DNA of 64,000 nt. Source: Haloplanus sp. HW8-1. Its GTDB lineage: Archaea > Halobacteriota > Halobacteria > Halobacteriales > Haloferacaceae. The notes under the pieces are model-generated. The model searched no databases. It worked only from the letters and a program-made list of their open reading frames with translations, and was not told the origin of the DNA. A program made the position numbers and the translations under genes. Each line of letters begins with the position of its first letter. Within the stretch, counting starts at the first letter, position 1. The stretch lies in assembly GCF_023703795.1 (NCBI RefSeq), contig NZ_CP098518.1, positions 1,240,001 to 1,304,000 on the forward strand, read 5' to 3'. Positions 12,749-57,134 of this stretch are shown in pieces.

Positions 12749-12817
12749 CGCCGAGTCGGCGCTGTGTCTGCGCCGTCTCGAAACGTTCAAAGGACTACCT
12801 CAAACACACTCAAAGCA

Positions 12818-13763: not shown

Positions 13764-13764
13764 G

Positions 13765-28355: not shown

Positions 28356-28476
28356 GGCGCTACTGCGGCCCCACGGTATAAGGACGTGTGGGAATCCGTG
28401 CGCCCCTCGGGCGTCGAACGCCCGTTGGGTTCACACGGGAGTACCGGTGACCGTTCCACCGAACACGGCGGAGCCG

Positions 28477-28908
28477 TCAGTCCTCCCGGACGACGGTGAC
28501 CGAGACGGGCGACTGGCGGATCACCCCCTCGGCGACGCTGCCGAGCAGTATCCGGGAGACACCCGACCGCCCGTGGCTCCCCATGACGATCCGGGTTACC
28601 CCGTGTTCCTCGGCGTACTCGACGATTTTCCGCGCGGGCTTGCCGACCAGCATCGCGGTGGTCAGTTCGACGCCGTGCTCCGCGGCGACGTCCTGCGCGT
28701 CGTCGAACAGTTCCGCCGTCAAGTTCTCCCAGCGGTCACGTGCGCCCTCCCCGAGGGATGGCTCCTCCCACGGCGGGAACGTCGGATCCGGCGGGTCGAC
28801 CACGTAGATCACGTGGATCTCCGCGTCGCTGTGGTTGGTCAGCGCATCCCGAAGCGCCTTCATCGACAGCGGCGACGAGTCGATGGGAACCAGAATCCTA
28901 TCTGACAT
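28477..28908 (-). CDS. Universal stress protein, UspA family
   Basis: Usp fold protein of 143 residues. The start MSDRILVPIDSSPLSMKAL is typical, and the ATP-binding motif G2xG9xG(S/T) is conserved as MGSHGRSGVSRILLGS, so nucleotide binding is expected. It acts as a stress-related nucleotide-binding dimer in the cytoplasm. I use the ATG at 28908 since homology begins there and a CTTATATG box (28931-28938) lies 26 nt upstream; a longer start would add six residues. Confidence 0.9.
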   Translation of the reverse strand: MSDRILVPIDSSPLSMKALRDALTNHSDAEIHVIYVVDPPDPTFPPWEEPSLGEGARDRWENLTAELFDDAQDVAAEHGVELTTAMLVGKPARKIVEYAEEHGVTRIVMGSHGRSGVSRILLGSVAEGVIRQSPVSVTVVRED

Positions 28909-28930
28909 GTGTGGTCGTACACTCATGGAT

Positions 28931-28938
28931 CATATAAG
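28931..28938 (-). promoter_or_regulatory. TATA-like box of the UspA gene
   Basis: CTTATATG on the minus strand lies about 26 nt before the UspA-family ATG, at leaderless spacing. Confidence 0.5.
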
Positions 28939-29023
28939 CGCTTTGACCGGTCGCATCTCGTGGGAACCGTCGAGGAGTGAGGCGGGGCGTACGGAGTTCC
29001 GGCGACGCGAAACGGGGGCGGAG

Positions 29024-30169
29024 CTACTCGGACAGGAGGTGGCGCTTCTCTGCCGGGACGCCGTGTTCGCGGTAGAAGTCGGGATACCGTCGCTCGAGTT
29101 CGGTGTACTCGACGTCGTAGCCGAAGTATCCCGGCCCCCAGACGTCCAGTGCGTCGGACGTCCGCATGATCTCCGGCGTCGGGATGCCGAACACTCTGAC
29201 TCGGTATCCGTAGCGAAGGGCTTCGGTCGTCACCGGCCGCCCGGTTTCGCGTTCGAGGACGACGATCAGGTCGGGAACGGTCGCGATGACGTCGCCGTCG
29301 AGACGAGCGATCAGGTTTTCGTTTTGGATCTCGATCCGGAGTCGGCTTCCGTCGTCCTCGTTCAGGCCGTCCATGTCGACGTGACCGACCGCGAACCCGC
29401 CCTCGGTCCGGCGCTGTACGTCGACGATCTTTCCCTCGAACAGTTCGATGGCCCGTCCGTAGTTCGAGTCGGCGGTCACCCGCTGGAGTGCCCGGATCGG
29501 ATCTCCCTCCGGTGGATCACGGATCGCGGCGCCGATCTCCATGCCGAGGCTGATCGTGTTCGGAATGCTCGTCTCCTTGACTTGTGTCCCCGACATGGGG
29601 TAGTCACAGAGGAACGAGGCCCCGCCCATCTCGATCGTCACCGCCCGGGCGAAACTCTCCAGGACACGATTACTCCCGGTTTCGAACAGGGACACGTCGC
29701 CCTGTTCGTCGGAGATGACGGCCGGCGTACCGTCGACACCGTAGACGTTCCAGGTCTCGTGGTGGAGTTCCGGGAACGCACGGCCCATCCCGTCGGCGTC
29801 GACGAGGGGGAGATCGGTCCGGGCGGCGACGGTGAACGGGATCGTGGAGTTCATGCCGCCACACTCGATCGGCATCGTCGCGAACACCTCGCGGTCGAAC
29901 TCCTCGGCGAGTCGTTCGAGCGACCGGATCGCCTCCCTGCCCTCGGGGAGTTTTTCGAGGATGACCGTCGGCGCACCCATCATCGCCGACGGGATCACGA
30001 GGGCGTCGTCGGGTACCTCCTCGGGATCGAGCATCGTCACCGGGCCGTACTCCTCGATGGCCTGTTGGGCCATCAGTTTGCCCACGTGTGGATCCCCACC
30101 GCCGCCGGTTCCGAGGACGGCCGCCCCGACCGACAGGTTCTCCATATCCTCGGTCGTCACTTCGCGCAT
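29024..30169 (-). CDS. DUF917 protein, copy 1 (S-methyl-thiohydantoin desulfurase-like)
   Basis: Protein of 381 residues of the DUF917 family (PF06032), starting with a strongly conserved GAAVLGTGGGGDPHVGK loop, then LDPEEVPDDALVIPSAMMGAP and VDADGMGRAFPE. A characterised relative acts as thiohydantoin desulfurase in bacterial ergothioneine breakdown; most members are genomically linked to hydantoinase/oxoprolinase genes and have no assigned reaction. The glycine-rich loop may bind phosphate or nucleotide. It abuts the hydantoinase gene without a gap and is the last gene of a three-gene minus-strand operon. It is similar to copy 2 throughout, so the pair arose by duplication. Confidence 0.88.
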   Translation of the reverse strand: MREVTTEDMENLSVGAAVLGTGGGGDPHVGKLMAQQAIEEYGPVTMLDPEEVPDDALVIPSAMMGAPTVILEKLPEGREAIRSLERLAEEFDREVFATMPIECGGMNSTIPFTVAARTDLPLVDADGMGRAFPELHHETWNVYGVDGTPAVISDEQGDVSLFETGSNRVLESFARAVTIEMGGASFLCDYPMSGTQVKETSIPNTISLGMEIGAAIRDPPEGDPIRALQRVTADSNYGRAIELFEGKIVDVQRRTEGGFAVGHVDMDGLNEDDGSRLRIEIQNENLIARLDGDVIATVPDLIVVLERETGRPVTTEALRYGYRVRVFGIPTPEIMRTSDALDVWGPGYFGYDVEYTELERRYPDFYREHGVPAEKRHLLSE

Positions 30170-31729
30170 CTACGTTTCCTCCCCTTCGACGCGGAGGTCG
30201 CCGGCGGCCTGCACCCGCAGTCGAACGGCGTTGCCGGGAAGATAGGAGAGGGGAACCTCTTCGAGATCGACGATCTCGACGGTGTCCGGATCGGCCCCCG
30301 CCTCGACGGCGTCCTGCCGAGCGAGGCGCTTTGCCTCCGCCAGCGCCTCCTCGCGGGGTTGATCGTCCAGCGAGAAGACCCGGTCTACGTGCCCGGAGAC
30401 CTGAGCGATCGCCGCACCGATGGCGTTGGCCACGTCGTAGTGATCGGGTTTGTCGACCTCCGAGGCCCCTGTCAGCTCGGTCGGAAGCAGGATGCTTCCG
30501 CCGCCGACCACGGCGACGGGGACGTCGCCGGCACTGGTTTTCATCTCGTCGATCGTTCGCTCCACGCGTTCGACGATGTCGTCGCTCACGGCCGCGACGA
30601 GTTCGTCACGCAGTTCGGGGTCGGTGGTTCCGAACGAGGCCCGACCCAACTCGATCGCGACGTCGGTAGCCGTCGTCACCGAACCGCCGAAACAGCGCGC
30701 CTCCGATTCGAGTTCGTAGCCGACGCTGTCCGGACCGACGCTGACGTCGCCGTCCTCCTCGCGAACGATGCTTCCGCCACCCAGTCCGATCGAGATCAGG
30801 TCGGGCATGCGGAAGTTGGTCTTGACCCCGCCGATCTCGACCGCGACGGCACTCTCACGGGGGAAGCCGTCGGAGAGCGCGCCGACGTCGGTGGTCGTGC
30901 CGCCCACGTCGATGATGATTCCGTCCCGGAGTCCCGAGAGGTACGCGGCCCCCCGGATGCTGTTTGCCGGTCCACAGGCGACGGTGAAGATCGGATACCG
31001 TTCGGCGTAGTCGACGCCCATCAGCGTCCCGTCGTTCTGGCCGAAGTAGAACTGGGCGTCGAGGTCGTGCCGGTCCATGGCGGTCCGGAACGCCGTACTG
31101 GCTTCCCGAATGACCCCCGTCAGTGCGGCGTTGAGGACGGTCGCGTTCTCGCGTTCGAGGAGTCCGACGCTCCCGATCTCGCTCGACAGCGACACCGGGA
31201 TCTCTTCTCCGAGTTCCTCCCGAACGAGTTCGGCGACACGCCGTTCGTGATCGTCCCGAACCGGAGAAAAGACCGAGGTGACGGCCACGCTGTCCACGAC
31301 GTCGGCCTTCTCACGACAGAACTCACGCACCGCGGTCTCGTCGAGGTCGGTGATCGGTTCGCCGTCGAACTCGTGGCCACCCTCGACGATGGTGGTGTGT
31401 CCGCCGATCGCGCCCACGAGGTCGTCGGGCCACTCCAATAGCGGCCGGATCGCTAGCGTCGCAGGGGCCCCGACTCGAATGACCCCGACCTGATTCAGGT
31501 TCCGTCGTTCCGTGACGGCGTTCGTACAGTGGGTCGTACCCAACATCACGGACTCGACGGCGGTCCTGTCGAACTCGTCGCCGAGTACCTCCTCCAACGC
31601 GGTGACGATGCCCCCGGTGACGTCCTCCGTGGTCGGCGTTTTCGTTTTCGCGATGAGACGATCCGATTCGTCGAGGACGACGGCGTCGGTGTTCGTGCCG
31701 CCGACGTCGATACCGATTCTGTAGCTCAT
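30170..31729 (-). CDS. Hydantoinase/oxoprolinase family ATPase (short type)
   Basis: Protein of 519 residues in the HyuA/oxoprolinase group. Actin-like ATPase motifs are visible: IGIDVGGTNTDAVVLD at the N-terminus (phosphate 1), MLGTTHCTNAVTER, and IIDVGGTTTDVGAL (phosphate 2). Such enzymes open lactam or hydantoin rings with ATP. This short type (about 520 residues) pairs with DUF917 rather than with a HyuB subunit. It lies between two DUF917 genes, with 4-bp overlap to copy 2 and direct abutment to copy 1. The ATG at 31729 is used; an open frame continues upstream inside DUF917 copy 2. Confidence 0.9.
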   Translation of the reverse strand: MSYRIGIDVGGTNTDAVVLDESDRLIAKTKTPTTEDVTGGIVTALEEVLGDEFDRTAVESVMLGTTHCTNAVTERRNLNQVGVIRVGAPATLAIRPLLEWPDDLVGAIGGHTTIVEGGHEFDGEPITDLDETAVREFCREKADVVDSVAVTSVFSPVRDDHERRVAELVREELGEEIPVSLSSEIGSVGLLERENATVLNAALTGVIREASTAFRTAMDRHDLDAQFYFGQNDGTLMGVDYAERYPIFTVACGPANSIRGAAYLSGLRDGIIIDVGGTTTDVGALSDGFPRESAVAVEIGGVKTNFRMPDLISIGLGGGSIVREEDGDVSVGPDSVGYELESEARCFGGSVTTATDVAIELGRASFGTTDPELRDELVAAVSDDIVERVERTIDEMKTSAGDVPVAVVGGGSILLPTELTGASEVDKPDHYDVANAIGAAIAQVSGHVDRVFSLDDQPREEALAEAKRLARQDAVEAGADPDTVEIVDLEEVPLSYLPGNAVRLRVQAAGDLRVEGEET

Positions 31730-32832
31730 GATGGGGTGTGGATGATGTCGCTGGTTGCCGCCCGCTGCTCGATGGGAACGTACTCGGTCTCGTATCCGAA
31801 AAAGGCGGGGCCACCGAGTTCGATGCCCGCTGCCGTTCGCCACGGGTCGGCACATTCGAGACCGAGAACGTCGACCCGGTATCCGTATTTCAGTTCCTCC
31901 GTCGTCACGGGCTGACCGGTCTCCTTCTCGATGATGGAGATGAGGTCCGGTGCAGTCGCCAGTATTTCGTCTTCGGTTTCGGCGATCAGAAATTCGTTCT
32001 GGAACTCGAGGGTGAGTTCGTGGCCGTCGAACGCGTCGAGTCCCTCGATCGTCGCCGTCCCCTGCGCGAAGCCTTCGGTCGTTCGTCGCTTGACGTCGGT
32101 CACCTTGCCGGAGAACAGGTGATGACCGTCGAACTCCCGGGCCAACACCTCGATCGGGGCGGCCGCGCGTTCGTCGACGGTTCGGATCGTCCGACCGATC
32201 TCCTCGGCGAGCGAGAGGCTTCCGTGGATCGCGTGCGCTTTGGTCTCCGCGCCGGTGTGACTGTAGATGGCGATCATCGCGGAGCCACCCATGTCGACGC
32301 TGATCGACCGGGAGAACGTCTCCGTCCAGGCGTTGTCGACGGTCTCTAAGAACAGCGAGTTTCCCTTTTCGTCCGCCATCGACATCGGCGTCGCGTCGAT
32401 CCCGCCGAGGGTGAGCGTCGTCTGGGGAATCTCCGGAAACGCGCGGCCCATTCCGTCGGCGTCGACGATCGGTACGTCGAGTGTCGCGGCGACGCCGAGG
32501 GGGATCGTCGAGTTCAGCCCGCCGGCTTCGATACTCATCGTCGCGTACGCCTCCTGTCCGACGTATCGCTCGAGCGCTTCGAAGGCCTCGACCGGTTCCG
32601 TCCCGCGCGGTAGTTTCTCGAGCATCACCGTCGGTGCGCCCATCATCGCCGAGGGAACGACGAGCGCATCGTCGGGGACCTCTTCGGGATCGAGCAGCGT
32701 TACTGGCCCGTTCTTCTCGATCGCCTGCTTGGCCATCAGTTTACCCACGTGTGGATCCCCACCGCCACCGGTGCCGAGAACGGCCGCGCCCGTGGCGATG
32801 GATTCGATATGCTCGCTGGTCAGTTCGCGCAT
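31726..32832 (-). CDS. DUF917 protein, copy 2 (S-methyl-thiohydantoin desulfurase-like)
   Basis: First gene of the three-gene operon, 368 residues, DUF917 family. The same signature loops as in copy 1 occur (AAVLGTGGGGDPHVGKLMA, LDPEEVPDDAL, AMMGAPTV, VDADGMGRAFPE), with clear divergence in the C-terminal third. It could form a heterodimer with copy 1 or act on a different intermediate; sequence does not decide. The gene is divergent from the NCS1 permease, 228 bp away, suggesting shared control. A minus-strand CTTTATAT box (32929-32936) implies a leader of about 70 nt. Confidence 0.88.
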   Translation of the reverse strand: MRELTSEHIESIATGAAVLGTGGGGDPHVGKLMAKQAIEKNGPVTLLDPEEVPDDALVVPSAMMGAPTVMLEKLPRGTEPVEAFEALERYVGQEAYATMSIEAGGLNSTIPLGVAATLDVPIVDADGMGRAFPEIPQTTLTLGGIDATPMSMADEKGNSLFLETVDNAWTETFSRSISVDMGGSAMIAIYSHTGAETKAHAIHGSLSLAEEIGRTIRTVDERAAAPIEVLAREFDGHHLFSGKVTDVKRRTTEGFAQGTATIEGLDAFDGHELTLEFQNEFLIAETEDEILATAPDLISIIEKETGQPVTTEELKYGYRVDVLGLECADPWRTAAGIELGGPAFFGYETEYVPIEQRAATSDIIHTPS

Positions 32833-33060
32833 CGGTCGACTACTGACTCCCCCCGGGTACTAATCGGCTTGGTCCGGATCTCATCGTCGATCCACCGTTC
32901 ACGAAGAACACGTTCGTTCTCTAAAATCATATAAAGTTTGGTTTGACAACCTATCCTACACGTATTATTCTATGATTTATTCATCTATCGAGCTTCCAAT
33001 ACAACAAACGACTATGCGATCAAAAGATATTTTTCATAGGGCGCCAATGCAAGCGTGTCA
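32833..33060. promoter_or_regulatory. AT-rich divergent promoter region, DUF917 operon and NCS1 permease
   Basis: The spacer is notably AT-rich for this genome. On the minus strand CTTTATAT (32929-32936) is a TATA candidate for the DUF917/hydantoinase operon. On the plus strand GATATTTTTCATA (33026-33038) precedes the permease. A 5-bp inverted repeat, AGAAC and GTTCT around ACGTTC, lies at 32906-32921. The layout fits one regulator controlling uptake and catabolism genes together (inference). Confidence 0.5.
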
Positions 33061-34479
33061 ATGTCTGACACTAGCTCATGGCGCGACGATATCGGGGATC
33101 ACGCCCTCGTACCAGTACCGGACGACGAAAAGAGAAGTATGCTAAACGTGTTCTTGGTGTATTCGGGGGTGCTCGCCGTGTTCGCGTTCATCGCGGTCGG
33201 GACGAGCATCGGAACGCAGTTCGCCCTTCGCGAGCAGATCATCATCGCCGTCCTGGCGAGTATCGTGCTCGCAGTGGTGGGCTCGGGGCTCGCCTACATC
33301 GGGGGGCTCACGTCCCTCTCGACGTACATCACGATGCGGTATCCGTTCGGGTACATCGGGGCGTGGATCTGGGGCGTCGTGATCAGCGGCATCCCCAGCG
33401 GGATCGGCTGGTTCGCCTTCGAGACGTGGCTGTTCGGCGTCACGATCAACGCGCTGGCGCCGAACACGTTCCTAGGTGACGTCGGAATCGCGGCCATCTG
33501 GGGCGGCATCCTGATGATGGCGACCGCCTACTACGGCTACGGCGGACTCTCGATCCTGAGTTACCTGGCAGTCCCGATGTTCTTCCTGCTCGCCATCGCG
33601 GGCATCATGGTGGGACTGGACGCCACGTCGACGATCGGAGAGCTGTTCGCGATGTCCCCCCAGGATCCCGGGGCCACGATCGGGACGGGCGTGACGATCG
33701 TCGTGGGCTCGTACATCGTCGGAGCCTCGATCACGATGGACATCGCCCGCTACGCGAAGCGATCCTGGTTCGCCCCGACCGCCTGGGCGGTCCAGATCTT
33801 CCTCTTCATGCCGATCGTCGTCGTCGGCGCGGGGATCATGACCCTGACGACCGGACAGGGCGACTTCGCACAGGTGATGCTCGGCGCCGGACTCGGGCTC
33901 GGCGTGTTCCTGATGGCGCTGTTCGGCTTCTGGAGCACGAACGACAACAACCTGTACGTCGGTGCCCTGTCGTGGTCGCTGTTCGTGCCGCTGAAAAAGA
34001 AGTTCATCGTGGTTCTGGAGGGGATCATCGGCACCGGGATCGCGGCCTACGTCGGCTTCTCGGCCGGCGCCTCCATGGACCCGTTCGTCGCGTTCCTGGG
34101 ACTGCTCGGCAACGTCATTCCGGCCGCGGCGGGCGTCATCCTCGCCGACTTCTACATCTATCGCTGGCTCAAGGGGACGAGCCTCGGCGACAGATACGAG
34201 TACGCCCCGGGTCAGGAGTTCGGACTCGTCGTGTGGCCCGGCTGGGTCGCCGGGGTCCTCGGCGCCTATCTCGGTGGCTTCTACATGAGCGGCGGGATCG
34301 GCAGCGTCAACGTCCTCCTGATCGCGGCGACGCTCCACGTCGTGCTCATGTACGGCGCCGACATTGTCGACATCCCGACGGAACTCGGATCGACCTCGAT
34401 CGATCAGAGCGGACAGAGCCCCGAAATCCACAAAAACGTCGCTGGCGGCGACGGTCGCGATTCGGTGGGGGGTGACTGA
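33061..34479 (+). CDS. NCS1-type permease (cytosine/allantoin/hydantoin transporter-like)
   Basis: Secondary transporter of 472 residues with about 12 helices, NCS1 family and nearest in feel to CodB-type cytosine permeases. Typical segments are YPFGYIGAWIWGVVISG, the loop ASITMDIARYAKR after helix 6 and FGFWSTNDNNLYVGALSW. NCS1 members import nucleobases, allantoin or hydantoins with H+ or Na+. The location next to DUF917/hydantoinase genes suggests a cyclic ureide or lactam as substrate. The start is ATG 33061; GTG 33055 is an alternative. A small membrane gene follows after only 2 bp. Confidence 0.88.
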   Translation: MSDTSSWRDDIGDHALVPVPDDEKRSMLNVFLVYSGVLAVFAFIAVGTSIGTQFALREQIIIAVLASIVLAVVGSGLAYIGGLTSLSTYITMRYPFGYIGAWIWGVVISGIPSGIGWFAFETWLFGVTINALAPNTFLGDVGIAAIWGGILMMATAYYGYGGLSILSYLAVPMFFLLAIAGIMVGLDATSTIGELFAMSPQDPGATIGTGVTIVVGSYIVGASITMDIARYAKRSWFAPTAWAVQIFLFMPIVVVGAGIMTLTTGQGDFAQVMLGAGLGLGVFLMALFGFWSTNDNNLYVGALSWSLFVPLKKKFIVVLEGIIGTGIAAYVGFSAGASMDPFVAFLGLLGNVIPAAAGVILADFYIYRWLKGTSLGDRYEYAPGQEFGLVVWPGWVAGVLGAYLGGFYMSGGIGSVNVLLIAATLHVVLMYGADIVDIPTELGSTSIDQSGQSPEIHKNVAGGDGRDSVGGD

Positions 34480-34481
34480 CG

Positions 34482-34922
34482 ATGGGGATCACGCTCTCAC
34501 AGGGACAGGCGGACGATCTGAGTCGAGACGAGTTCCTCTCGGTGTCGGTCCGTCTCGCGTACCTCTCGGCGGGACTCGCCGTGGTTCTGGCCGTCGTCGC
34601 CGCACTGATGTGGAGTAGCAACATGTGGACGGCGCTCATCTCGGTGTTGGTCGCTGCCGCACAACTCGTCATCGCCGGGACCCTCCCCACGCGGATGCGA
34701 AAGCGAGCCGACCTCCGTGACGCCGGGAACGTGGTCGTCCAGCACAGTTGGTTGCTCCTCTCGATCGCCATCGCGGCACTGGCGATCTATCCGTCGCCCT
34801 TCTTCGAGGTCACGACCGTGTGGTTCTCGCTGGCGATGCTCGTGGGGCTCGCGTGGGCCATCATCGGCGTGTACAACCTCCATCGGAGCATCACTCGTGC
34901 GGGTGCCCGGCTGACCATCTGA
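34482..34922 (+). CDS. Small four-helix membrane protein coupled to NCS1 permease
   Basis: Unrecognised membrane protein of 146 residues. Four hydrophobic helices are visible (about 25-45, 50-70, 90-108, 113-133) between a charged N-terminus (SQGQADDLSRDEFLS) and a short basic C-terminus. The start codon lies 2 bp after the permease stop, so co-translation is likely. It may assist the permease as a small subunit, or handle a product; no family motif is seen. Codon use matches the neighbours. Confidence 0.7.
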   Translation: MGITLSQGQADDLSRDEFLSVSVRLAYLSAGLAVVLAVVAALMWSSNMWTALISVLVAAAQLVIAGTLPTRMRKRADLRDAGNVVVQHSWLLLSIAIAALAIYPSPFFEVTTVWFSLAMLVGLAWAIIGVYNLHRSITRAGARLTI

Positions 34923-35048
34923 GAGACCGCCTCGACCCGCCATTCGACTCCCGACTTCTCGCCGTTCTAAACGAGGGATTCACGACCGGAGTCCGTCGAT
35001 TCGAAGGCGTTTCCGAGGGTGCGAGCCGGTCACGACGCCTGCGGATCG

Positions 35049-36821
35049 CTACTCGCCCCGCAGCGCTCTCGTCGCCTCCCAGTCTATGCTCCCGTCCTCG
35101 GTAACGACGACGCCGTAGTCGTCCCGTGCGGACTCCCGCGAGACGTAGCCGTTTCGTACGTCGTCACGGACCGCCTCCGGATCGCGATCGAGCGGATCGC
35201 CGTATCCGCCGCCGCCGCCGGACCGGTTCGACAGCACCTCGCCGGCCTCGAACCACCCCTGCATCATCCCCGTGTACTGTTCGTCGGGGTCCGGATCGTA
35301 GTCGGCGTCGTTGTCGACGAGGAAGTCGAACCGGTCGCGCCACCCTTCCTCGCCGTTGCTTTCGACGACGACGACGTTTCGCTCCCCCGGTTCGCCGCCG
35401 TCGAGTCCCCAGCCCTCGGTTCGGGTCTTTTTGATGAGCGTGATTCCTTTCACGTCGTCGAGGAAGCGGTAGTCCCGACGGACGCCGAGACCGCCGCGGA
35501 ACTCGCCGATTCCCCCCGAATCCTGTCGAAGGGTGAGTTCGTCGAATCGGATCGGGACCTTGTTTTCGAACACCTCGATCGGGATGTTCTGCACGCGGGT
35601 CTCGCTGATGTGCATCAGCGCGTTCGCCCCGTCCATCCCGTCGGTCGCGCCCCAGCCGACGCCCTCGTTCGAAGACTCGATGAACATCTCTCCGGTCTCG
35701 GGGTCCTCCGCGACGAGAACGATCCCACAGAGGTCACCGCCGGAACTGGCCGGAACGCGGTCCGGCATCCCCTTCGCGACCGCTTTGTACACCACTTCGA
35801 CGCCGAGGATGCCCGTCCAGATCGTGAACGTCGGCGCCGGATAGGTCGCGTGAAAGAGGTTCCCCTCCGGGGCGACGACCGAGAGGGGTTCGTACTGCCC
35901 GGCGTTCGACGGTTCGTCCGGGGTCGTGAGGGTCTTCAAGACGAGTTTACAGACCGTCTCGGTCATTCCGTAGGGGAGGTTGACCGGGCCGGCGACCTCG
36001 TCGGACGATCCGGAGAAATCGACCGTGAACTCCTCGCCGTCCACGGTCACCTCGACGTCCATACGGACGAGATCGTCGGTGATGCCGTCGTTGTCGAGGA
36101 AGTCCACGGCCGACCACGTCCCGTCCGGGAGGTCGGCGACACCCTCTTTGGCGGTCCGGCGTCCGTGCTGGAGGATCCGGTCGATTGCCGCGTCGACCGT
36201 CGAGGACCCGTATTTCTCGTGCAGTTCCTGAACCCGCCGTTTGCCAGTGTTGAGGGCGGCGATCTGGGCGTTGACGTCGCCGATCACCTTCTTCGGCGTC
36301 CGGGAGTTGTACCGGAGGAGTTCGAAGATCTCCTCGTCGGGTTCGCCGCCCTTGTAGATCTTCGTCCCGGGGAACACGAGGCCCTCCTGGTGCATGTCCG
36401 TGGAGTCGATCACGTAGCCGGACTCCTTGGCCCCCAGATCGAGCCAGTGTGCGCGGATCACGGCGTAGCCGACGTGTTCGTCCCCGGAGTAGATCGGCGA
36501 GAACAGACAGACGTCGAGCGTGTGGGCCGAACTCCAGTACGGGTAGTTCATGATGACGATATCGCCCGGGTCGAGGTTCTCCTCGCCGACGTACTCGACG
36601 CCCTTTTTCAGGCCGTAGTCGTTCGCGCCGAGGAACATCGTCAGCCCCGGCGAGTCCGCCACGAGGTTCATGTCGGCGTCGTACAGCGAGATGCCGAAAT
36701 CCAGGATCTCGTAGATGATCGTGTTGTAGGACGTCCGGATGAGGGTCCGTTGCATCTCGTTTGCCGCCGACGACAGGTAGTTCCGGATGACCTCGACCGT
36801 GGCGGCATCGACGTCGCTCAT
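35049..36821 (-). CDS. hyuB: Hydantoinase B/oxoprolinase family subunit
   Basis: HyuB-type subunit of 590 residues, partner of HyuA in ATP-dependent ring opening of hydantoins or 5-oxoproline. It starts VDAATVEVIRNYLSSAANEMQ (in parts), followed by DPGDIVIMNYPYW, GHVxRAHW-like HVGYAVIRAHW, and late GGGGYGDPLDRDPEAV, a near-universal HyuB C-terminal motif. Cytoplasmic. The ATG at 36821 overlaps the hyuA stop by 4 bp. The frame remains open upstream through hyuA antisense, which I disregard. The genes converge on the NCS1 operon. Confidence 0.93.
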   Translation of the reverse strand: MSDVDAATVEVIRNYLSSAANEMQRTLIRTSYNTIIYEILDFGISLYDADMNLVADSPGLTMFLGANDYGLKKGVEYVGEENLDPGDIVIMNYPYWSSAHTLDVCLFSPIYSGDEHVGYAVIRAHWLDLGAKESGYVIDSTDMHQEGLVFPGTKIYKGGEPDEEIFELLRYNSRTPKKVIGDVNAQIAALNTGKRRVQELHEKYGSSTVDAAIDRILQHGRRTAKEGVADLPDGTWSAVDFLDNDGITDDLVRMDVEVTVDGEEFTVDFSGSSDEVAGPVNLPYGMTETVCKLVLKTLTTPDEPSNAGQYEPLSVVAPEGNLFHATYPAPTFTIWTGILGVEVVYKAVAKGMPDRVPASSGGDLCGIVLVAEDPETGEMFIESSNEGVGWGATDGMDGANALMHISETRVQNIPIEVFENKVPIRFDELTLRQDSGGIGEFRGGLGVRRDYRFLDDVKGITLIKKTRTEGWGLDGGEPGERNVVVVESNGEEGWRDRFDFLVDNDADYDPDPDEQYTGMMQGWFEAGEVLSNRSGGGGGYGDPLDRDPEAVRDDVRNGYVSRESARDDYGVVVTEDGSIDWEATRALRGE

Positions 36822-38845
36822 CGGTCCACCTCCGTGATGATGAGGTGACCGTAGTCGTCGACCCTCGCCTCCTGATCCGAGTGGAAGACGATCGTCGTCG
36901 TGGGTTCGCGCACGATAGCCGGTCCCGGAATCACTTGCCCCGCCGCGAGTCGGTCGCGACGATACACGTCGAACGCCACCACCTCGTCGCTGGCGAAACA
37001 GTGCGCTTCCTGTGTGCCGACCACCTCGTCGCCCGACTCCCCCCCCTCGCGGCGGGAGATATCCGGGGTCTCGGTTTCCCCGATACCGCGGACGCGGAGG
37101 TGGACTGCCTCCGCCGGATCGTCCATCGTATGGCCGTAGCGCCGTCGGTGTTGCTCGGCGAACCGATCCGCGAGTTCGTCGACGCTTTCGAGGCCGTCGG
37201 CCGGCACCTTGACCGTGTGTTCCTGTCCGAGGTAGCGCATTTCGACCGACCGCTCGGTCCGGCGATCCGTGGGGTCGAACCCCTCGTCGGCGAGCGTGGT
37301 GTGGGCCTCCTCTTCCAATCCCTCGAACCACGATTCGAGGGCCGAGCGCTCGACGTCCCGGAGCGGTACGAGTTCCGTCTGGGAGAAGTCGTACACCACG
37401 TTCGTCATCTGCATGCCGTACGCCGAGAACACCGACGGTGCCTGTGGGATGATCACCTCCTTGGCGCCGAGTTCGCGAGCCAACAGCGGGACGAACATCG
37501 GCCCGGCGCCGCCGTAGCCGACCATCGAGAAGTCCCGGGGATCGAGTCCCTTCTCGACGGTGATCTCACGGATCGTGCCGACGGTGTTGGCGAGCGTGAC
37601 TTCGAAGACACCCTGACTGACCTCCGAAACCGTCGAATCCAGCGGGTCCGCGAGGTTCGTCTCGATCCCGTCTCTGGTCCGTTTCTCCGCGAGTTCCATC
37701 TCACCGCCGAGGAACCACTGGGGGTCGATGTATCCGAGCGCGACCGCCGCGTCGGTCAGGGTCGGGTCCTCGCCGCCCTGACCGTAGCAGATCGGCCCGG
37801 GATCGGCCCCGGCGCTCTTCGGGCCGACGCGGAGGATCTCGCCGTCGAGCCACGCGATGGACCCCCCACCCGCCCCGATGGTACGGATGTCGTACACCGG
37901 AATCATCATCCGGAGGTTTCCGAGCGACGCCTCGTACTCCACGGACGGCGACCCGTCCTCGATCACGCAGGCGTCCAGACTCGTGCCACCCATGTCCACC
38001 GCGATTAGATCCTCCCTGTCGATGATCTCCCCGACCCGCGCCGAACCGATGATTCCGCCGGCCGGCCCGGAGAGGATCGTGTGGACGGGGGCAGTCTTCG
38101 CGTTCTCCGCCGCCAGCGCGCCACCACCGGAACGGGTGATGAAGAAGCTACCATCGAACCCGCGGTCCGTGAGTCCCGTCGCTAACCGATCCACGTACGA
38201 CTCGAAGATCGGCTTGATGTACGCGTCGAGGACCGTCGTCGAGGTCCGTTCGAACTCCCGGTATTCGCCCGTGATGTCCTGTGAGGTCGAGACGCTCACG
38301 TCGGGTGCCCGTTCGCGAATGATCTCCGCGGCCCGTTGCTCGTGGGCGTCGTTCTGATAAGCGTGGAGAAAACAGACGGCGGCGGAGTCGACCGCCGTGG
38401 CCAACTCGTCGGCGACCCGTTCGACCCCGCCCTCGTCAAGCGGTTCGACCACCTCGCCGTCCGCGTCCAGGCGGCCGGGGACGCCGTAGCGGTGCCGACG
38501 CTCCACTAGCGGGTCCGGGGCGTCGTAGGGAACGGTGTACATGTCCTCCACGGGACGGTCGTACCGTCCGATCTCGAAGACGTCGGTGAACCCCTCGTTG
38601 GTTACGATTCCGGTCGTCGCCCCCTCGCGCTCCAGAAACGCGTTGATCCCCAGGGTCGTGCCGTGAACGAACGTCCGGATCTCGTCGAGGTCGACGTCCA
38701 GTTTCTCGATGGCCGCGAAGACGCCCCGCGTCGGGTCCTCTTCGGTCGTCGGCGCCTTCTCCAACCGCATCTCGCCGCTGTCCCGATCGAAGGCGATCGC
38801 ATCGACGAACGTTCCACCGATATCGACCGCGAGTTGCTGGTTCAT
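36818..38845 (-). CDS. hyuA: Hydantoinase A/oxoprolinase family subunit
   Basis: HyuA-type ATPase subunit of 675 residues. The N-terminus QLAVDIGGTFVDAIAFD is the phosphate-1 loop of the actin-like fold; HGTTLGINAFLEREG, GPAGGIIGSA and LIAVDMGGTSLDACVI follow, then GGGSIAWLDG. It belongs to the long type (about 680) that works with HyuB, unlike the short type 5 kb away. A minus-strand AGATATTTG box near 38879-38886 precedes the ATG. Together with hyuB it should open a cyclic imide or lactam at the expense of ATP; substrate unknown. Confidence 0.93.
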   Translation of the reverse strand: MNQQLAVDIGGTFVDAIAFDRDSGEMRLEKAPTTEEDPTRGVFAAIEKLDVDLDEIRTFVHGTTLGINAFLEREGATTGIVTNEGFTDVFEIGRYDRPVEDMYTVPYDAPDPLVERRHRYGVPGRLDADGEVVEPLDEGGVERVADELATAVDSAAVCFLHAYQNDAHEQRAAEIIRERAPDVSVSTSQDITGEYREFERTSTTVLDAYIKPIFESYVDRLATGLTDRGFDGSFFITRSGGGALAAENAKTAPVHTILSGPAGGIIGSARVGEIIDREDLIAVDMGGTSLDACVIEDGSPSVEYEASLGNLRMMIPVYDIRTIGAGGGSIAWLDGEILRVGPKSAGADPGPICYGQGGEDPTLTDAAVALGYIDPQWFLGGEMELAEKRTRDGIETNLADPLDSTVSEVSQGVFEVTLANTVGTIREITVEKGLDPRDFSMVGYGGAGPMFVPLLARELGAKEVIIPQAPSVFSAYGMQMTNVVYDFSQTELVPLRDVERSALESWFEGLEEEAHTTLADEGFDPTDRRTERSVEMRYLGQEHTVKVPADGLESVDELADRFAEQHRRRYGHTMDDPAEAVHLRVRGIGETETPDISRREGGESGDEVVGTQEAHCFASDEVVAFDVYRRDRLAAGQVIPGPAIVREPTTTIVFHSDQEARVDDYGHLIITEVDR

Positions 38846-39020
38846 ACAGAATCGATCGCATATGTTGGTACCGGTTAACAAATATCTTGTCCACACTCAC
38901 GATTGGTATTATTGCTTTTTTCACAGAATATTAATAATCGTTCGTGTTGCTCCGCCACGGTGTCGGGACGTCGCAGTTCCGACCGTGGGGAAGGTAGTGA
39001 GGTGTCGGGGGGCGAGTCGC
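38846..39020. promoter_or_regulatory. AT-rich spacer with hyuA promoter
   Basis: A 175-bp gap between hyuA and trxB, both minus. The half next to hyuA is AT-rich. CAAGATATTTGTTAACC on the minus strand (about 38872-38888) holds the likely TATA box and a GTTAAC palindrome. The rest, after trxB, may include its terminator; no clear stem is seen. Confidence 0.4.
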
Positions 39021-40202: not shown

Positions 40203-40487
40203 ATGCCCGCCGACCTCGAAGAGAAGACCGACCGCTACGAACGGATGCTCGCGGACGCCCTCGACGAGGCCGAGATCGGAGCGCCCGCGGGGACGCCACT
40301 CGGGGAGACGGCCGCCGAGTGCCGGGAGATGGCGGTATCGTATCTCGACGACGGCCGCCACTTCCGCGAGACCGGCGACCCGGTGAACGCCCTCGCGGCC
40401 TACTCGTACGGCTACGGGTGGCTCGACGCAGGCGTGCGGATGGGGCTCTTCGTGGTCCCCGAGGAGACGACGCTGTTCACCGTCTGA
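40203..40487 (+). CDS. DUF357 domain protein
   Basis: Small protein of 94 residues of the archaeal DUF357 family: helical N-terminus (LEEKTDRYERMLADALDEA), then the conserved AxxYLxDGRHFRETGDPVNALAAYSYGYGWLDAGVRMG region. This resembles a single TPR-like helical hairpin. It is widespread in archaea without an assigned function; adaptor or RNA-processing roles are speculation. The ATG at 40203 is used because homology begins there. It stands alone, divergent from trxB. Confidence 0.85.
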   Translation: MPADLEEKTDRYERMLADALDEAEIGAPAGTPLGETAAECREMAVSYLDDGRHFRETGDPVNALAAYSYGYGWLDAGVRMGLFVVPEETTLFTV

Positions 40488-40587
40488 TCGATCGACGACG
40501 ACGAGGTTCTATGTACCCCCGGGGCCAACGGGACGCTACCCCCACGGCATGTCGTCGTTCCCGGCGTGGGGAGACGCAACCGAACCC

Positions 40588-41694
40588 ATGTCAGATTCGT
40601 ACGCTTCACTCACTGATGGCGGTATCGAGGTCGATCCGGAACGCTACGCCCGGTTCGATACGCGGGCGGGCAACCCAGCGATGACGCCCGATGGACGACT
40701 GATCGTCAGCAACCACCCGTTCCCGTACGGCGAGAACCCCGAGTACCGGGTCGTCGAGTACGTCGACGACGACACCGTCCGGCCGTTTCCGAACGAGGCG
40801 TGGAGTACGCCGCCCGGTGACGACGGCGTCGGCATCCACTCGCTCATCGGCCTGCGGGCGGATCCGGACGGCATCGTCCGCATCCTCGACATCGGCGACA
40901 TCGAGAACGGCCACCTCCCGAAACTCGTCTCGTGGGATACGAACGTCGACCGACTCCGGGCCGTCCACCACGTCCCCGCCCACGCGACGACCGACCTCTC
41001 GTTCATGCAGGACTTCGCGTACGACGCGGTGCGCAACGCCGTCTACATCGCCGATCTGGGGCCGGGCGACGAACCGGGCGAGGCCGGCAAGCCGGCGCTC
41101 GTGGCCCTCGACCTCGATACCGGTCGGACCCGGCGCGTGATCGAGGACCACCCGAGCGTCTTGCCCGAGGAGGGCGTGCGCTCGGTCATCGAGGGCGACC
41201 CCGTCGTCGAGGAGACCGACGACGGCGAGTTCGTCCCCGTCAAGCGTGGCCTCGACGGCATCACAATCGACCCCGCCTTCGAGTGGGTCTACTTCTGTGG
41301 CATCACGACGGAGAGCGTCTACCGCGTCCGCGCGGCGAATCTGCTCGACGAGTCGCTCACCGACGCCGAACTCGACGCCCGCATCGAACGCTACGGCGAC
41401 AAGGAGGTCTGTGACGGCATCACCGTCGACACGGCGGGGAACGTCTACATCACGGATATGACCAACAACGCCATCGGCGTGACGCGGCCCTCGGGCGAGT
41501 ACGAGATCATCGCCCGGGACGACGAGAAGTTCCTCTGGCCGGACGGCTTTTGTTGTGGGCCGGACGGCCACATCTACTTCACCGTCACACAACTTCACCG
41601 AGCGCCCCCCTACAATCGGGGGATCGAGGATTCGTATCACCCGTTCGAACTGTTCCGGTTCGAGAGCCTCGCGCCCGTCACCGTCGGACGATAG
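40588..41694 (+). CDS. MRJP/Yellow family beta-propeller protein
   Basis: Protein of 368 residues with the sequence pattern of major royal jelly/Yellow (PF03022) proteins: LSFMQDFAYDAVRNAVYIADLG, LVALDLDTGRTRRVIEDHPS, GLDGITIDPAFEWVYFC, VCDGITVDTAGNVYITDM and WPDGFCCGPDGHIYFT. Six-bladed propellers of this type include dopachrome tautomerase-like and gluconolactonase-like enzymes. No signal peptide is evident, so it is probably cytoplasmic. The start is uncertain: an in-frame ATG at 40549 would add 13 residues. It is not obviously in an operon. Confidence 0.78.
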   Translation: MSDSYASLTDGGIEVDPERYARFDTRAGNPAMTPDGRLIVSNHPFPYGENPEYRVVEYVDDDTVRPFPNEAWSTPPGDDGVGIHSLIGLRADPDGIVRILDIGDIENGHLPKLVSWDTNVDRLRAVHHVPAHATTDLSFMQDFAYDAVRNAVYIADLGPGDEPGEAGKPALVALDLDTGRTRRVIEDHPSVLPEEGVRSVIEGDPVVEETDDGEFVPVKRGLDGITIDPAFEWVYFCGITTESVYRVRAANLLDESLTDAELDARIERYGDKEVCDGITVDTAGNVYITDMTNNAIGVTRPSGEYEIIARDDEKFLWPDGFCCGPDGHIYFTVTQLHRAPPYNRGIEDSYHPFELFRFESLAPVTVGR

Positions 41695-41811
41695 ACGCCC
41701 AGGGACCGCTCGAATCGGCCGGCCACTCCCTTCGACCGCGGCGTCTCGTTCCGCCGTCTCGACGGCCAGCCGGGGTCAAGCACGGCAGCGTCAATCGACT
41801 CCCGCGGGCGA

Positions 41812-44223
41812 CTACCCCGTCGGCGCCCCGGCCGGCGGCGCGACGGCGGCCTGCCGGTCGGCGTTGGACTCGCTCGACCAGGACAGATCGCCGGCGTAGT
41901 GGAAGGCCGTGTGGTCCTGCGTGGGGTCGACGACGGTCAGTGCGAACCAGCCGTTGTCGAGCAACGCCGCGACGTCCTCGTGGGCGGCGAGGGCGTCGGT
42001 CACCCGGTCGACCGGCGCGTGGATCACGGCCGAAAGCCGGAGCGGCTGGTGGTGGGGGTCGTCGTCGGTCGCCATCACCGACTGGAGGGGGAGCCCGGTC
42101 ATCAGGTCGCCCCCGTTGCCCTGGTACACGCCGACGTTGCCCACGGGGTTGTGGGTGATCTTCGATCCGCTCCCGTAGACGGCGTTGTCGACGGTCGCGA
42201 AGTAGTACTGTGCGTTGATCCACTGGGTAACGACCAATGGCCCGGAGAGGATGGCGGCCAGTGCCTCGCCGTCCGGATCGGTGCGCCAGTCGTAGGAGTG
42301 GAGGAAGGCGCGACCGTCGAGATCTAGCCCGGCAGTGAGTTCGCGCGGACCGACGACGAAGCCGGCATTGCCGGCCAGTCCCCACTCCGGCCGGGTCTCC
42401 GCCCAGTCGACCGCCCGGCGTTCCACCTCGTGGACGGCCGACGTACCGTCCACACCCAGTGCCTCGGTCCGCTCCGCGACTGCGCCGGCGCGGGCGGTCT
42501 CCAGGTCCGCACGGAGCCGTTCGACGTCGTCCGCGTGGCTCTCGGGGACCGGATCGGTGTACAGGCTGATCTCGTCCGTCGTCGTGTCGTGTTCGGCCGC
42601 GAGGAAGACGGTGTCCGTGGGCACGTCGAACCCGCGGTCACGGAGCGCCGCCTTGACTCGCTCGTCGTTACAGATCGTCGCGAGGACCCGCGCGTTCGGG
42701 CCGCCGGGGTTACCGGCACAGGCGCCACAGTCGAGGCTCGCGTCGAACGGGTTGTTGGTGGTCCGACTCGCGTGCCCCGTGAACACGACGAGGCGAGCGA
42801 ACGTCTCCCAGCCCATCGTCTCGAAGGCGCTCGCGGCGTAGTCGACGCGCTCTTCGAGCGTCATCCCCCGTGGGAGGTCCCCCTCGGCGTCCGGTTCGTG
42901 TTCGACCGTCGGCGCACAAAACGCGGCGGGGTCCGGGAGCCGCGCCTCGACGGCGTCGGCGAGATCGGAGACGCGGGCGGGGAGCAGCGTCCGGGCGGCC
43001 ACGGCGGCGCCGTACCCACTCCCGGCCGCCTCGACGAAGTTGAACGCCGTCGCCGCGTTCGAGGTGAGCGCCTCGACGACCGACCGACCGGCCTCGACGG
43101 CGTCACGCCAGCGGTCGTGGTCGGCCCGCCGTTCCTCGCAATCGTCCGCGGGCCGGTCGGCGATCCGGTGCCGTGCGTCGAGGATCGGCGGGCAGGCGTC
43201 GACGCTCACCTCGTCGTCGTACCCCTCGTAGCGCATCGGGACACCGAAGAATCCGGCGTAGCCGTGGGTCTCGTACGCGCCCGCGGCCTCGACGTGACGG
43301 CGGATGACCTCCGAGCGCGTATCGATACAGAAGACCAACTGGGCGTCGGGACGTTCGTCGTCCGCGCGATCCGACAGCGACGCGCTCGCGTCAGCGACGA
43401 CCCCCACGAGTTCGTCGCGATACGTCGCCTCCCACGCGGTCAGCCAGGCCTCGCGGAGGGGGACCGTCCCGTCGTCGTCGACGCCGCATTCCCGCGACTC
43501 CGACGGATCGAGCGGCGCGTCGAGTGCGTCGGCGAGCGCAAGCCGTACCGCGAGATAGCCGACGAGCGTGACGGGATATGCCGACTGCCAGTCGCCGTCG
43601 TCCGCGGCGCGCCGCTTGATGAGCCCCGTCCAGCCGGGCAGCGCGGTCAGGTGCGCCTCGAAGATGGACTCCCACCGATCGCTGGGGTGGTCCGCGAGGA
43701 GTTGCTCGACGGCCGCCACGGGCCGATCGGGGAGGTCGGCGAACGCCGTCCGATCGGGGAGTTCGGCGTCGTGACGGGCCAGGCTCCGGACGGCGCGGTA
43801 GAACCCCTGCTCGCGGTTCGGCATCGGCCACTTCGCCTGCCCCTCGTCGAGGAACGCCGCCAGCCACTTGACCACGAGACGGTCGACGCGATCCGTCGCC
43901 GTCTCGTCGGTCCCCGTCCCCGTCGCCGCCTCCATACGCGCCAGGAGCGCCTCGGGCGACGCGTCGTAGCCGCGGTCGGTCAGTTCGGTCCGCAGGCGTT
44001 CGGGGTCGATCCGTCCCGACTCCCAGGCCCGACGGAACACGTCGGCAGTCGGGTAGCCGTCGCCCCCGACGAGCCGCGTCCCCTCCCGGACGGCCTCCTC
44101 GAACGGCCGATCCTCGAAGCCGGCGAGCGGATTGGCCGTCACGAACGAGTGAAGCGGCCAGACCGACCCGACCGCCGTCGCCGCCCGCTCGACGCACTCG
44201 CGGATCTCGGTCTCAGTAGGCAT
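41812..44223 (-). CDS. dabA: DabA, inorganic carbon transporter subunit (DUF2309)
   Basis: Large peripheral subunit of 803 residues of the DAB (DabAB) dissolved inorganic carbon accumulation complex. The zinc-site residues known for bacterial DabA are in register: Cys299 and Asp301 in VFCIDTRSE, and His484 and Cys499 in FTGHASRTTNNPFDASLDCGA (in parts), with the 15-residue His-Cys spacing of the family. It has a beta-carbonic-anhydrase-like active site that hydrates CO2 vectorially, driven by ion flow through DabB. The start overlaps the dabB end by 11 bp. An acidic Asp/Glu-rich surface marks a halophile. Confidence 0.93.
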   Translation of the reverse strand: MPTETEIRECVERAATAVGSVWPLHSFVTANPLAGFEDRPFEEAVREGTRLVGGDGYPTADVFRRAWESGRIDPERLRTELTDRGYDASPEALLARMEAATGTGTDETATDRVDRLVVKWLAAFLDEGQAKWPMPNREQGFYRAVRSLARHDAELPDRTAFADLPDRPVAAVEQLLADHPSDRWESIFEAHLTALPGWTGLIKRRAADDGDWQSAYPVTLVGYLAVRLALADALDAPLDPSESRECGVDDDGTVPLREAWLTAWEATYRDELVGVVADASASLSDRADDERPDAQLVFCIDTRSEVIRRHVEAAGAYETHGYAGFFGVPMRYEGYDDEVSVDACPPILDARHRIADRPADDCEERRADHDRWRDAVEAGRSVVEALTSNAATAFNFVEAAGSGYGAAVAARTLLPARVSDLADAVEARLPDPAAFCAPTVEHEPDAEGDLPRGMTLEERVDYAASAFETMGWETFARLVVFTGHASRTTNNPFDASLDCGACAGNPGGPNARVLATICNDERVKAALRDRGFDVPTDTVFLAAEHDTTTDEISLYTDPVPESHADDVERLRADLETARAGAVAERTEALGVDGTSAVHEVERRAVDWAETRPEWGLAGNAGFVVGPRELTAGLDLDGRAFLHSYDWRTDPDGEALAAILSGPLVVTQWINAQYYFATVDNAVYGSGSKITHNPVGNVGVYQGNGGDLMTGLPLQSVMATDDDPHHQPLRLSAVIHAPVDRVTDALAAHEDVAALLDNGWFALTVVDPTQDHTAFHYAGDLSWSSESNADRQAAVAPPAGAPTG

Positions 44224-45700
44224 CGTACTCCTCCCGGTCGGTCAGCAGGGTCGTCGACGGTGGCCGGGTCGCGTTCAGCAGCGCCACGTAGAGGCGCGTG
44301 CTGTGGCGGTACAGCCCCGTCTCGATGGCGAGATACGCCCCGAGGAAGGCGACGGCGACCAGTCCGTGAACGACCGTCAGTTCGGCCGGCGCCGTGACGA
44401 CGGGCACCCCGGTCAGAACACGTCCGACGACGCGGTAGACCGCCGCGTACAGCGCGATGGCCGGCAGGAAGACCAGCGGGATGGCGACGAAGCGAACCGC
44501 CGCCGACGGCGTGGTCCGCGCGGCCGTCGTCCGCGCCGCGTGCATCGTGGTCAGGACGACGAGCCCCGTCAGCAACAGTCCGGCGTCCGCTTTGGCGCCC
44601 TTCCCGGTGAGCAGGGTGAAGATCCAGCCGCCGACGAGCGCGGTCGTCAACGTCACTGCGACGCCGGCGACGCCGAGCGCGTTCGTCTCCGATCCGGATT
44701 TCGGGGCCGTCTGCTCGACCTGACTTCCGGACGAGAGGAACCGGTGGGCCTTGTAGAAGCCGTGCAGGACGAGGTGAGCGAGCGCGGCGCCGAAGAACCC
44801 GAGGCCCGCCTGCATGATCATAAAGCCCATCTGTCCGACCGTCGAGCAGCCGAGCGTCCGCTTGACGTCGGACTGGACCGACTTCAGGAGCTTTCCCAGC
44901 AGCGCGCTGACCGCACCGACGACCACGATCAGGAGCATGAACTCCCCGTGGACGGTGACCACTGGGGCGACGCGGAGCAACAGCACGCCGCCCGCGTTGA
45001 CGAACCCGGCGTGCATCAGGGCCGACGCCGGGGTTGGCGCGGTCATCGAGGCGAGCAGCCAGGTGTGGAAGGGGACCAGCGCGGACTGGATCATCGCCGC
45101 CAGGAGTAGCGCGCCCGCCCCGACGAGCCACACTCCCGTAGGTACGGCGTCGGCGGCGGCGACGACCCCCGAGACGGTCGTCGCACCCGTCGACCACGAG
45201 AGCACTCCGAGTCCGAGGGCCAGAACCGCCCCGCTCGCGAGGAAGTACCGGCGAGCGAGGGCCGCCGCCGCCCGCGCCTGCGGCCATCCCTCGACGTGGC
45301 CGATCAGCGCCGCCATCACGAGTCCCATCGCCAGCCACGCGATCACGAACAACGCCACGTGATCGGCCGCGACGAGCGTCATCACGACGAGCGTGAAGGC
45401 GAACACGCCGGCGAAGAACCGTTCGACGCGCCGGTGACCGGCCATGTAGCGACGCGAGTAGCTGTGGACGATGCCGCCGAAGAAGGTGACCACGACCCAC
45501 ATCGAGACGGTGAGTCCGTCGACGACGAGAAGGCCCGACAGCTCCCACGAACCGCCGGTCTGAACGTGCGTGAGCAGCACGCCCAGACTCGCGAGCCACA
45601 GCACCCAGACGAGTCGCGTGAGAACGACCGGGGTGAGCGGCGTCGCGTTCGTCTCGTCCGGCAGTGCGCCGACGGTCGTCGAGGGATCTTCTGCGGTCAT
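44213..45700 (-). CDS. dabB: DabB, NuoL-like proton-conducting membrane subunit
   Basis: Membrane subunit of 495 residues with about 13 helices, of the proton-conducting transporter family (NuoL/MrpA-like), partner of DabA. Motifs are QSALVPFHTWLLASMTAPTPASALMHAGFVNAGG (in parts), KLLKSVQSDVKRTLGCSTVGQMGFM and LVLHGFYKAHRFLSSGS. It supplies the cation gradient energy for DabA. ATG 45700 is preferred to GTG 45721. The upstream spacer has a TTTAATAG box and repeated GAACGTT sites. Confidence 0.92.
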   Translation of the reverse strand: MTAEDPSTTVGALPDETNATPLTPVVLTRLVWVLWLASLGVLLTHVQTGGSWELSGLLVVDGLTVSMWVVVTFFGGIVHSYSRRYMAGHRRVERFFAGVFAFTLVVMTLVAADHVALFVIAWLAMGLVMAALIGHVEGWPQARAAAALARRYFLASGAVLALGLGVLSWSTGATTVSGVVAAADAVPTGVWLVGAGALLLAAMIQSALVPFHTWLLASMTAPTPASALMHAGFVNAGGVLLLRVAPVVTVHGEFMLLIVVVGAVSALLGKLLKSVQSDVKRTLGCSTVGQMGFMIMQAGLGFFGAALAHLVLHGFYKAHRFLSSGSQVEQTAPKSGSETNALGVAGVAVTLTTALVGGWIFTLLTGKGAKADAGLLLTGLVVLTTMHAARTTAARTTPSAAVRFVAIPLVFLPAIALYAAVYRVVGRVLTGVPVVTAPAELTVVHGLVAVAFLGAYLAIETGLYRHSTRLYVALLNATRPPSTTLLTDREEYDAY

Positions 45701-46001
45701 CGTCGATGTCGTCGTCCTCACCAGTACAACGAACGAAATGGCTATTAAATTCTTCTATTTTACCAGAACGTTCGTATATCTCGATTAAAAGAACGTTATA
45801 GTTTCTCACTGACGGGCGGTGACGTGCGCCGGTCGGGTGGGTGAGGCGGGGTCGCGGCGTGAACGGACGCGTCGGGAGTCGGCGCCGTCGGTCGTCGTGG
45901 ACGACGACACCGTTCCGAGACGACGAAGCGTTCGAAATCGAGGGAGACGTGGACGGTCCGTTCGCGTCGACGTGGTGGCGTCCGGGGGCGGGCCACCGGC
46001 G
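45701..46001. other. Intergenic region between dabB and Lrp gene
   Basis: About 300 bp without a credible gene. The left third is AT-rich and carries the dabB promoter; the remainder is GC-rich with only a low-quality Arg/Pro-rich frame (45796-45996, minus) that looks non-coding. Confidence 0.6.
45741..45797 (-). promoter_or_regulatory. dabB promoter with repeated GAACGTT sites
   Basis: Reading the minus strand toward dabB, a TATA-like ATTTAATAG (45742-45750) would give a leader of about 20 nt. Upstream lie GAACGTTC (palindrome, 45766-45773) and a second GAACGTT (45791-45797), 25 bp apart start to start. Spacing near two and a half helical turns suggests a dimeric or multimeric regulator. 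The Lrp/AsnC gene just upstream is an obvious candidate. Confidence 0.45.
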
Positions 46002-46466: not shown

Positions 46467-46550
46467 GACCGTACGTTTCGCGGCCGCGACAAAGGAACTT
46501 CGGCTCCGGGGGGTCGGTGGCCGCCCTCGCTCGTCCGCCGTCGCGGGCTG

Positions 46551-57077: not shown

Positions 57078-57134
57078 GCATATCTGGGTAGCGTCAGCAT
57101 TGTGGGCGAGTCCGATGCGGGGACAACCGTCTCG

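Follow-up and report, generated by a model that had tools for sequence, protein, structure and literature searches.

A short HyuA-type ATPase encoded between two DUF917 proteins in a lineage-specific island of Haloplanus sp. HW8-1: a candidate two-component cyclic amidohydrolase

We analyzed a stretch of 64,000 nucleotides from the haloarchaeon Haloplanus sp. HW8-1 (NZ_CP098518.1, positions 1,240,001 to 1,304,000; hereafter the window, with positions counted from its first letter) and, within it, a group of genes at 29,024-38,845 that an earlier reading of the sequence, the original prediction, had described as a catabolic island for cyclic amides. All seven open frames that it had listed were recovered in place, and their identities were assigned by Pfam and NCBIfam. 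The trio at the center of this study is read on the minus strand from 32,832 downwards and encodes DUF917a (S-Me-THD-like, 368 amino acids (aa); 31,726-32,832), the short HyuA-type ATPase HyuAs (519 aa; 30,170-31,729), and DUF917b (S-Me-THD-like, 381 aa; 29,024-30,169). DUF917a and HyuAs overlap by four bases and HyuAs abuts DUF917b exactly, as in operons. On the plus strand lie an NCS1-type permease (33,055-34,479) and, two bases further, TM4 (34,482-34,922), a protein of 146 aa with four predicted transmembrane (TM) segments. HyuA (36,818-38,845) and HyuB (35,049-36,821), which overlap by four bases on the minus strand, complete the set.

HyuAs carries a full Hydant_A_N domain (Pfam, E 4e-41) and a Hydantoinase_A match (E 6e-34) that covers positions 1-174 of 291 only, and gave no Pfam match to Hydant_A_C (PF19278). 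Its two phosphate motifs, P1 and P2 (DVGGTNTD and DVGGTTTD; residues G10 G11 T12 T14 D15 and D274 G276 G277 T278), are retained in 95% or more of 83 HyuAs sequences. The best Foldseek matches of its AlphaFold2 (AF2) model (predicted local distance difference test score (pLDDT) 85) were the substrate-phosphorylating ATPase subunits of the HyuA/carboxylase family (E 1e-29 to 1e-22), namely those of N-methylhydantoinase, caprolactamase, acetone carboxylase, and acetophenone carboxylase; activases (component A, EutJ) matched more weakly. HyuAs thus shares both phosphate motifs and the ATPase fold with the ATP-dependent hydantoinases, oxoprolinases, and caprolactamases (PDB 6yra, 7hk5, 9h03), but, unlike the HyuA of HyuAB, CapAB, and N-methylhydantoinase, it is a short protein that has neither Hydant_A_C nor the GxxPGP motif and adjoins DUF917 in place of HyuB. 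The "short hydantoinase" of the original prediction is a type separate from HyuAB; it is a HyuA-type ATPase subunit without HyuB and not a classical metal hydantoinase.

Both DUF917 proteins contain S-Me-THD_N and S-Me-THD_C (Pfam, E 5e-57 to 1e-66). The only significant PDB fold match of the DUF917a model (AF2, pLDDT 80) was 2o3i, itself a DUF917 protein; the idea that DUF917 is a distant HyuB was rejected on this basis, since the fold differs from that of HyuB. DUF917a and DUF917b fell into different old groups of the DUF917 tree, which was obtained from a short search and includes long branches, and they do not therefore derive from a recent duplication. Paralogues of the b type were found in several other loci (L033, L042, L049, L052, L083, L144, and L145; L and G numbers are our handles for loci and genomes). 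With the S-methyl thiohydantoin desulfurases, after which their Pfam domains are named, the window proteins share both domains (PF06032 and PF20906) and the fold (2o3i). They match both NCBIfam desulfurase models (E 1e-28 to 1e-32), but at 99-113 bits they fall far under the equivalog cut-offs of 440 and 450. DUF917 proteins closer to the desulfurases (234-304 bits) form a separate clade, encoded near AroM, DUF1177, and OPT genes and without HyuAs beside them. Loci of this second clade (L129:4448-9340, L134:5171-12471, L135, L136, and L138) combine DUF917 with AroM, DUF1177, an M29 peptidase, and an OPT or peptide transporter, and Haloferax holds both clades.

Across bacteria and archaea, HyuAs and DUF917 occur widely as a coupled pair, a point absent from the original prediction. 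We collected 80 loci by scanning genome contigs with a DUF917 alignment; as they were picked by similarity to DUF917a, the count is biased toward the DUF917a clade. HyuAs adjoins DUF917 on the same strand, at less than 250 bp, in 76 of these loci, which come from Chloroflexi, Bacillota, Proteobacteria, Actinobacteria, and archaea. Three of the four exceptions (L056, L114, L115) are on short contigs or at contig edges, and in the fourth (L057) HyuAs is located about 6.5 kb away. A second sample comprised 296 genomes of the phylum of G394, which holds a Streptomyces locus, taken regardless of the presence of HyuAs. DUF917 was found in 17 of these genomes, and HyuAs was adjacent in 17 of the 19 loci read, the two exceptions being one 6.8-kb contig and one member of the desulfurase-like clade. 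No natural HyuAs-DUF917 fusion was found, and the frames longer than 850 aa in the phylum sample corresponded to separate genes.

Among Halobacteria, true HyuAs, taken as matches above 400 bits (the remaining matches were to long HyuA only), were present in 14 of 391 genomes; DUF917 was detected in 8 genomes of a 194-genome subset, all of them HyuAs genomes. In all of these HyuAs loci that no contig end truncates, HyuAs is flanked by DUF917a on one side and DUF917b on the other, the b gene of L045 being split into two frames. Two layouts were observed. In the window and in G209, from another family and with a HyuAs 82% identical, the trio is accompanied by NCS1-TM4 and HyuBA. A third DUF917 is present in the other loci, and those examined (L034, L037, L042, L045, L049, and L050) have oligopeptide ATP-binding cassette (ABC) transporter genes upstream; an AsnC-type regulator then follows in L037, L042, L045, and the two Haloferax loci, L049 and L050. 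The window set (NCS1, DUF917a, HyuAs, DUF917b, HyuA, and HyuB) is repeated in the bacterial loci L144 and L145 and in L083 (Alicyclobacillus). The co-conservation expected by the original prediction was thus borne out by G209, L083, L144, and L145, with HyuAB as an optional member. HyuB was not encoded in 8 of the 29 HyuAs-DUF917 genomes checked, some of which are incomplete assemblies, and in a Haloferax genome (G245:C2:156094-157678) the HyuB gene is in three pieces and the HyuAs and DUF917 genes are open.

The window NCS1 protein, a distant relative of the cytosine permease CodB, is homologous over most of its length to the nucleobase/hydantoin permeases of the CodB type and matches the solved CodB structure 7qoa (E 7e-27). 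It differs from them in that it scores under the family cut-offs (Pfam 18.8 bits vs. 23.5; NCBIfam cytosine permease E 6e-54, also below cut-off) and is accompanied by the unnamed TM4, for which no Pfam or NCBIfam match was obtained. Homologues of TM4 were found directly 3' of NCS1 in L033 (G209), L048 (Methanomethylicales), L094 and L106 (Desulfurococcales; BLAST E 1e-7 for L106), and L161 from the bacterial phylum sample, consistent with TM4 being a partner of this NCS1 type; in Halobacteria, it occurs in 2 of 391 genomes, both with this island. In L048 (5416-8826), two MtmB-family methyltransferase genes without an in-frame amber codon and a gene for a corrinoid protein are located near NCS1-TM4-DUF917-HyuAs. 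Among the 80 loci, NCS1 relatives lie beside DUF917-HyuAs in 30 and oligopeptide ABC genes in 33, the former mostly with one DUF917 and the latter with two or more. The transporter type switches 5 times on the HyuAs tree, compared to 22.6 times in shuffles. With moderate support (85-88), the clade formed by the window and G209 was placed beside the Haloferax ABC clade and next to the Desulfurococcales NCS1-TM4 loci and to loci of the Binatia type; HyuB of the latter shares 51-52% identity with the window protein.

The neighboring HyuAB is canonical. HyuB (PF02538, E 6e-159), the beta subunit, keeps the Asp-His-Asp-His metal ligands aligned to D41, H99, D102, and H124 of CapB (PMC8453981), and HyuA, the alpha (ATPase) subunit, has Hydant_A_N, Hydantoinase_A, and Hydant_A_C together with the motifs DIGGTFVD, DMGGTSLD, and GADPGP, aligned to 6yra_A and 7hk5. 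Every ATP motif and metal ligand tested is therefore shared with the HyuAB, CapAB, and N-methylhydantoinase enzymes. HyuA and HyuB scored 517 and 245 bits against the NCBIfam caprolactamase equivalog (cut-off 1000), and we thus assign them to the wider HyuAB class only.

The whole system is contained in a 10.6-kb insertion (approximately 28,397-39,015). In four congeneric genomes (L140-L143), compared with TrxB as the orthologous anchor (Usp being unusable for this purpose), the match to the window breaks off at ~28.39 kb and resumes at ~39.02 kb after a gap of 0 to about 380 bp, and the junction sequences of L140 and L143 resolved the empty site to ~15 bp, showing it to be nearly scarless. 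No HyuAs orthologue was found in any of eight other sampled congeneric genomes (0/8). Together, these observations are most simply explained by a lineage-specific insertion, which we read as a laterally acquired catabolic block, in line with the "catabolic island" first proposed. The genes do lie at 29,024-38,845, but the unit extends further on both sides and includes a gene for a universal stress protein (28,477-28,926, minus strand; PF00582, E 5e-34), the best congeneric matches of which are only ~50% identical. The GC content of the insertion is 64.4%, against 67.4% for the remainder of positions 1-56,000. We saw no recombinase among the genes of the insertion, and a search of the 64-kb window returned no tRNA gene. 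The AT-rich region between the divergent units (32,833-33,054) likely contains the promoters from which the trio and NCS1-TM4 are transcribed; a promoter scan returned matches to the sigma-70 consensus only, which is no evidence in an archaeon. Two other parts of the window also stand out. Three of the four congeners lack a second stretch, at 40,487-46,551 (L140, L142, and L143 join 40.48 to 46.55 kb), and L141 still matches the window up to 41,697 within it; beside another large frame, it holds an 803-aa frame that we take to resemble DabA/DUF2309. At 56,001-64,000, the GC content drops to 55-63%, as compared to ~67% elsewhere, suggesting mobile or foreign DNA.

How might HyuAs and DUF917 act together? 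For the HyuA/carboxylase family, activation of a carbonyl as a phosphoenol or phosphoimidate has been proposed, with hydrolysis at a metal site of the beta subunit in the HyuAB-type family (PMC5214803, PMC8453981). In the island, NCS1, probably with TM4, would import a ring-shaped amide, and the ATP motifs, the fold, and this family chemistry suggest that HyuAs phosphorylates the ring carbonyl to a phosphoimidate. DUF917 would then add water at the activated C=N carbon and the ring would open, much as in S-methylthiohydantoin hydrolysis. To our knowledge, the sole named DUF917 reaction is, going by the enzyme name, the replacement of S-methyl at the C=N carbon of a hydantoin ring. In chemical terms a phosphoimidate is comparable, and the simplest reading by analogy would be that DUF917 performs the second half-reaction. 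HyuAs and DUF917 would constitute a two-component ATP-dependent cyclic amidohydrolase independent of HyuB, and the DUF917-paired HyuAs points to a putative second design for ATP-driven ring opening. In its favor are the adjacency of HyuAs to DUF917 in both domains of life, the HyuAs genomes without HyuB, the broken HyuB gene of G245, the lack of Hydant_A_C in HyuAs, and the separate fold of DUF917. The ancient divergence of DUF917a and DUF917b makes it probable that they serve as distinct subunits or as two handles for substrates. HyuAB, a canonical representative of the same general kind of enzyme, may act on a related ring or in a second step. We regard this combined reading, a laterally acquired block for a small cyclic amide in which HyuAs and DUF917 work as an amidohydrolase without HyuB, as tentative, giving it slightly less than an even chance.

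The likeliest substrate of the window island would be a hydantoin-like or dihydropyrimidine-like ring. A hydantoin-like ring agrees with the NCS1 transporter in the island, the CN-hydrolase near the pair in L053, the Mo-hydroxylase genes in L107, L111, L112, and L119, and three genes of the carbamoylase family (TIGR01879) at other places in the HW8-1 genome. For the HyuAs-DUF917 family as a whole, there may be several substrates, hydantoin-like in the NCS1-type clusters and cyclic dipeptides in the ABC-type clusters.

Several observations weigh against this scheme. The conserved residues of DUF917, among them E102, D124, D126, R130, E134, and E280 of DUF917a, include no His and no Cys, which makes its metal dependence uncertain, and in the alignment HyuAs has no counterpart of the GxxPGP adenosine motif of HyuA. 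No carbamoylase or racemase is encoded in the island, and no PF01177 (racemase family) protein was found in the HW8-1 genome. Our literature search returned no measured activity for any HyuAs-DUF917 pair, and gene adjacency is no proof of physical or catalytic partnership. Finally, peptidases beside the pair in other clusters point to peptides as the substrate.

According to this last view, the rings opened by the pair would be cyclic dipeptides (diketopiperazines) or others derived from peptides, and peptidases would cut the resulting linear dipeptides. The oligopeptide ABC genes of the 33 loci and of the Haloferax-type operons are in keeping with it, as are the cyclodipeptide oxidase (CDO)-like genes (CDO-A-like) in seven loci (L051, L056, L057, L059, L064, L072, and L077), M19 dipeptidases near the pair in L066 and L085, an L-Ala-D/L-Glu epimerase-like protein in L072, M29-like peptidases beside HyuAs in L146, L148, L150, L152, and L154, and a PepQ-like M24 peptidase with a proline racemase in L131. 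An enrichment of DUF917 in CDO gene clusters has also been reported (PMC11055893), and DUF917 neighbors, hydantoin racemase, and peptide transporters are shared with these clusters in several related loci. However, such clusters have a CDO gene, whereas none of the island genes matched CDO-A (PF00881) or CDO-B (PF19585); the window has NCS1 and no peptide transporter, and the island has no peptidase or oxidase. Furthermore, no one peptidase family is constant across the loci, and a Pfam census of operon neighbors identified no single constant downstream enzyme. The literature on cyclic dipeptide hydrolysis by this family yielded a passing remark only. We therefore consider a peptide-derived substrate unlikely, while giving it real weight. 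The L131 locus (7883-15171), from the same Desulfosporosinus genome as L053, encodes HyuAs, two DUF917 proteins, a racemase, the PepQ-like M24 peptidase, and proline racemase, a combination suggestive of cyclo(X-Pro) breakdown.

It is improbable that HyuAs, rather than being a substrate kinase, serves DUF917 as an ATP-driven activator or chaperone in the manner of the ASKHA-type reactivases: it does have the ASKHA fold, with activases among its weaker structural matches, but its top matches by far are substrate-phosphorylating subunits and both phosphate motifs are retained. That HyuAs uses a HyuB encoded nearby or elsewhere, DUF917 performing an independent step, would fit the loci in which the pair or trio has HyuAB as a neighbor (the window, L033, L083, L107, L119, L144, L145, L158, and L160), but we find it quite improbable given the eight genomes without HyuB, the full-length HyuA that HyuAB already possesses, and the lack of the HyuA C-terminal domain in HyuAs. 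Very unlikely for this island is the role in the original prediction that was not supported, in which DUF917 strips sulfur from a thiohydantoin, as in ergothioneine-type catabolism, and hydantoinases open the product, because of the low desulfurase scores and the nearer relatives in a clade without HyuAs, to which can be added that no further gene of such a pathway was recognized in the island. Searches of the open literature on ergothioneine and DUF917 returned no paper on a thiohydantoin desulfurase.

The original interpretation is thus supported in part, for its catabolic island, its co-conserved gene set, and its distinct hydantoinase types. The part that deserves specialist attention is the coupling of HyuAs and DUF917; the remainder is an ordinary, well-bounded acquired catabolic island. 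Many proteins carry only the annotation DUF917 or "hydantoinase/oxoprolinase family". If the proposed pairing is true, it would provide a reaction for both groups and account for clusters of ring catabolism in bacteria and archaea, and ATP-driven lactam opening would have arisen with two unrelated second subunits. The HyuAs-DUF917 genes of the genetically tractable Haloferax may offer a compact test system.

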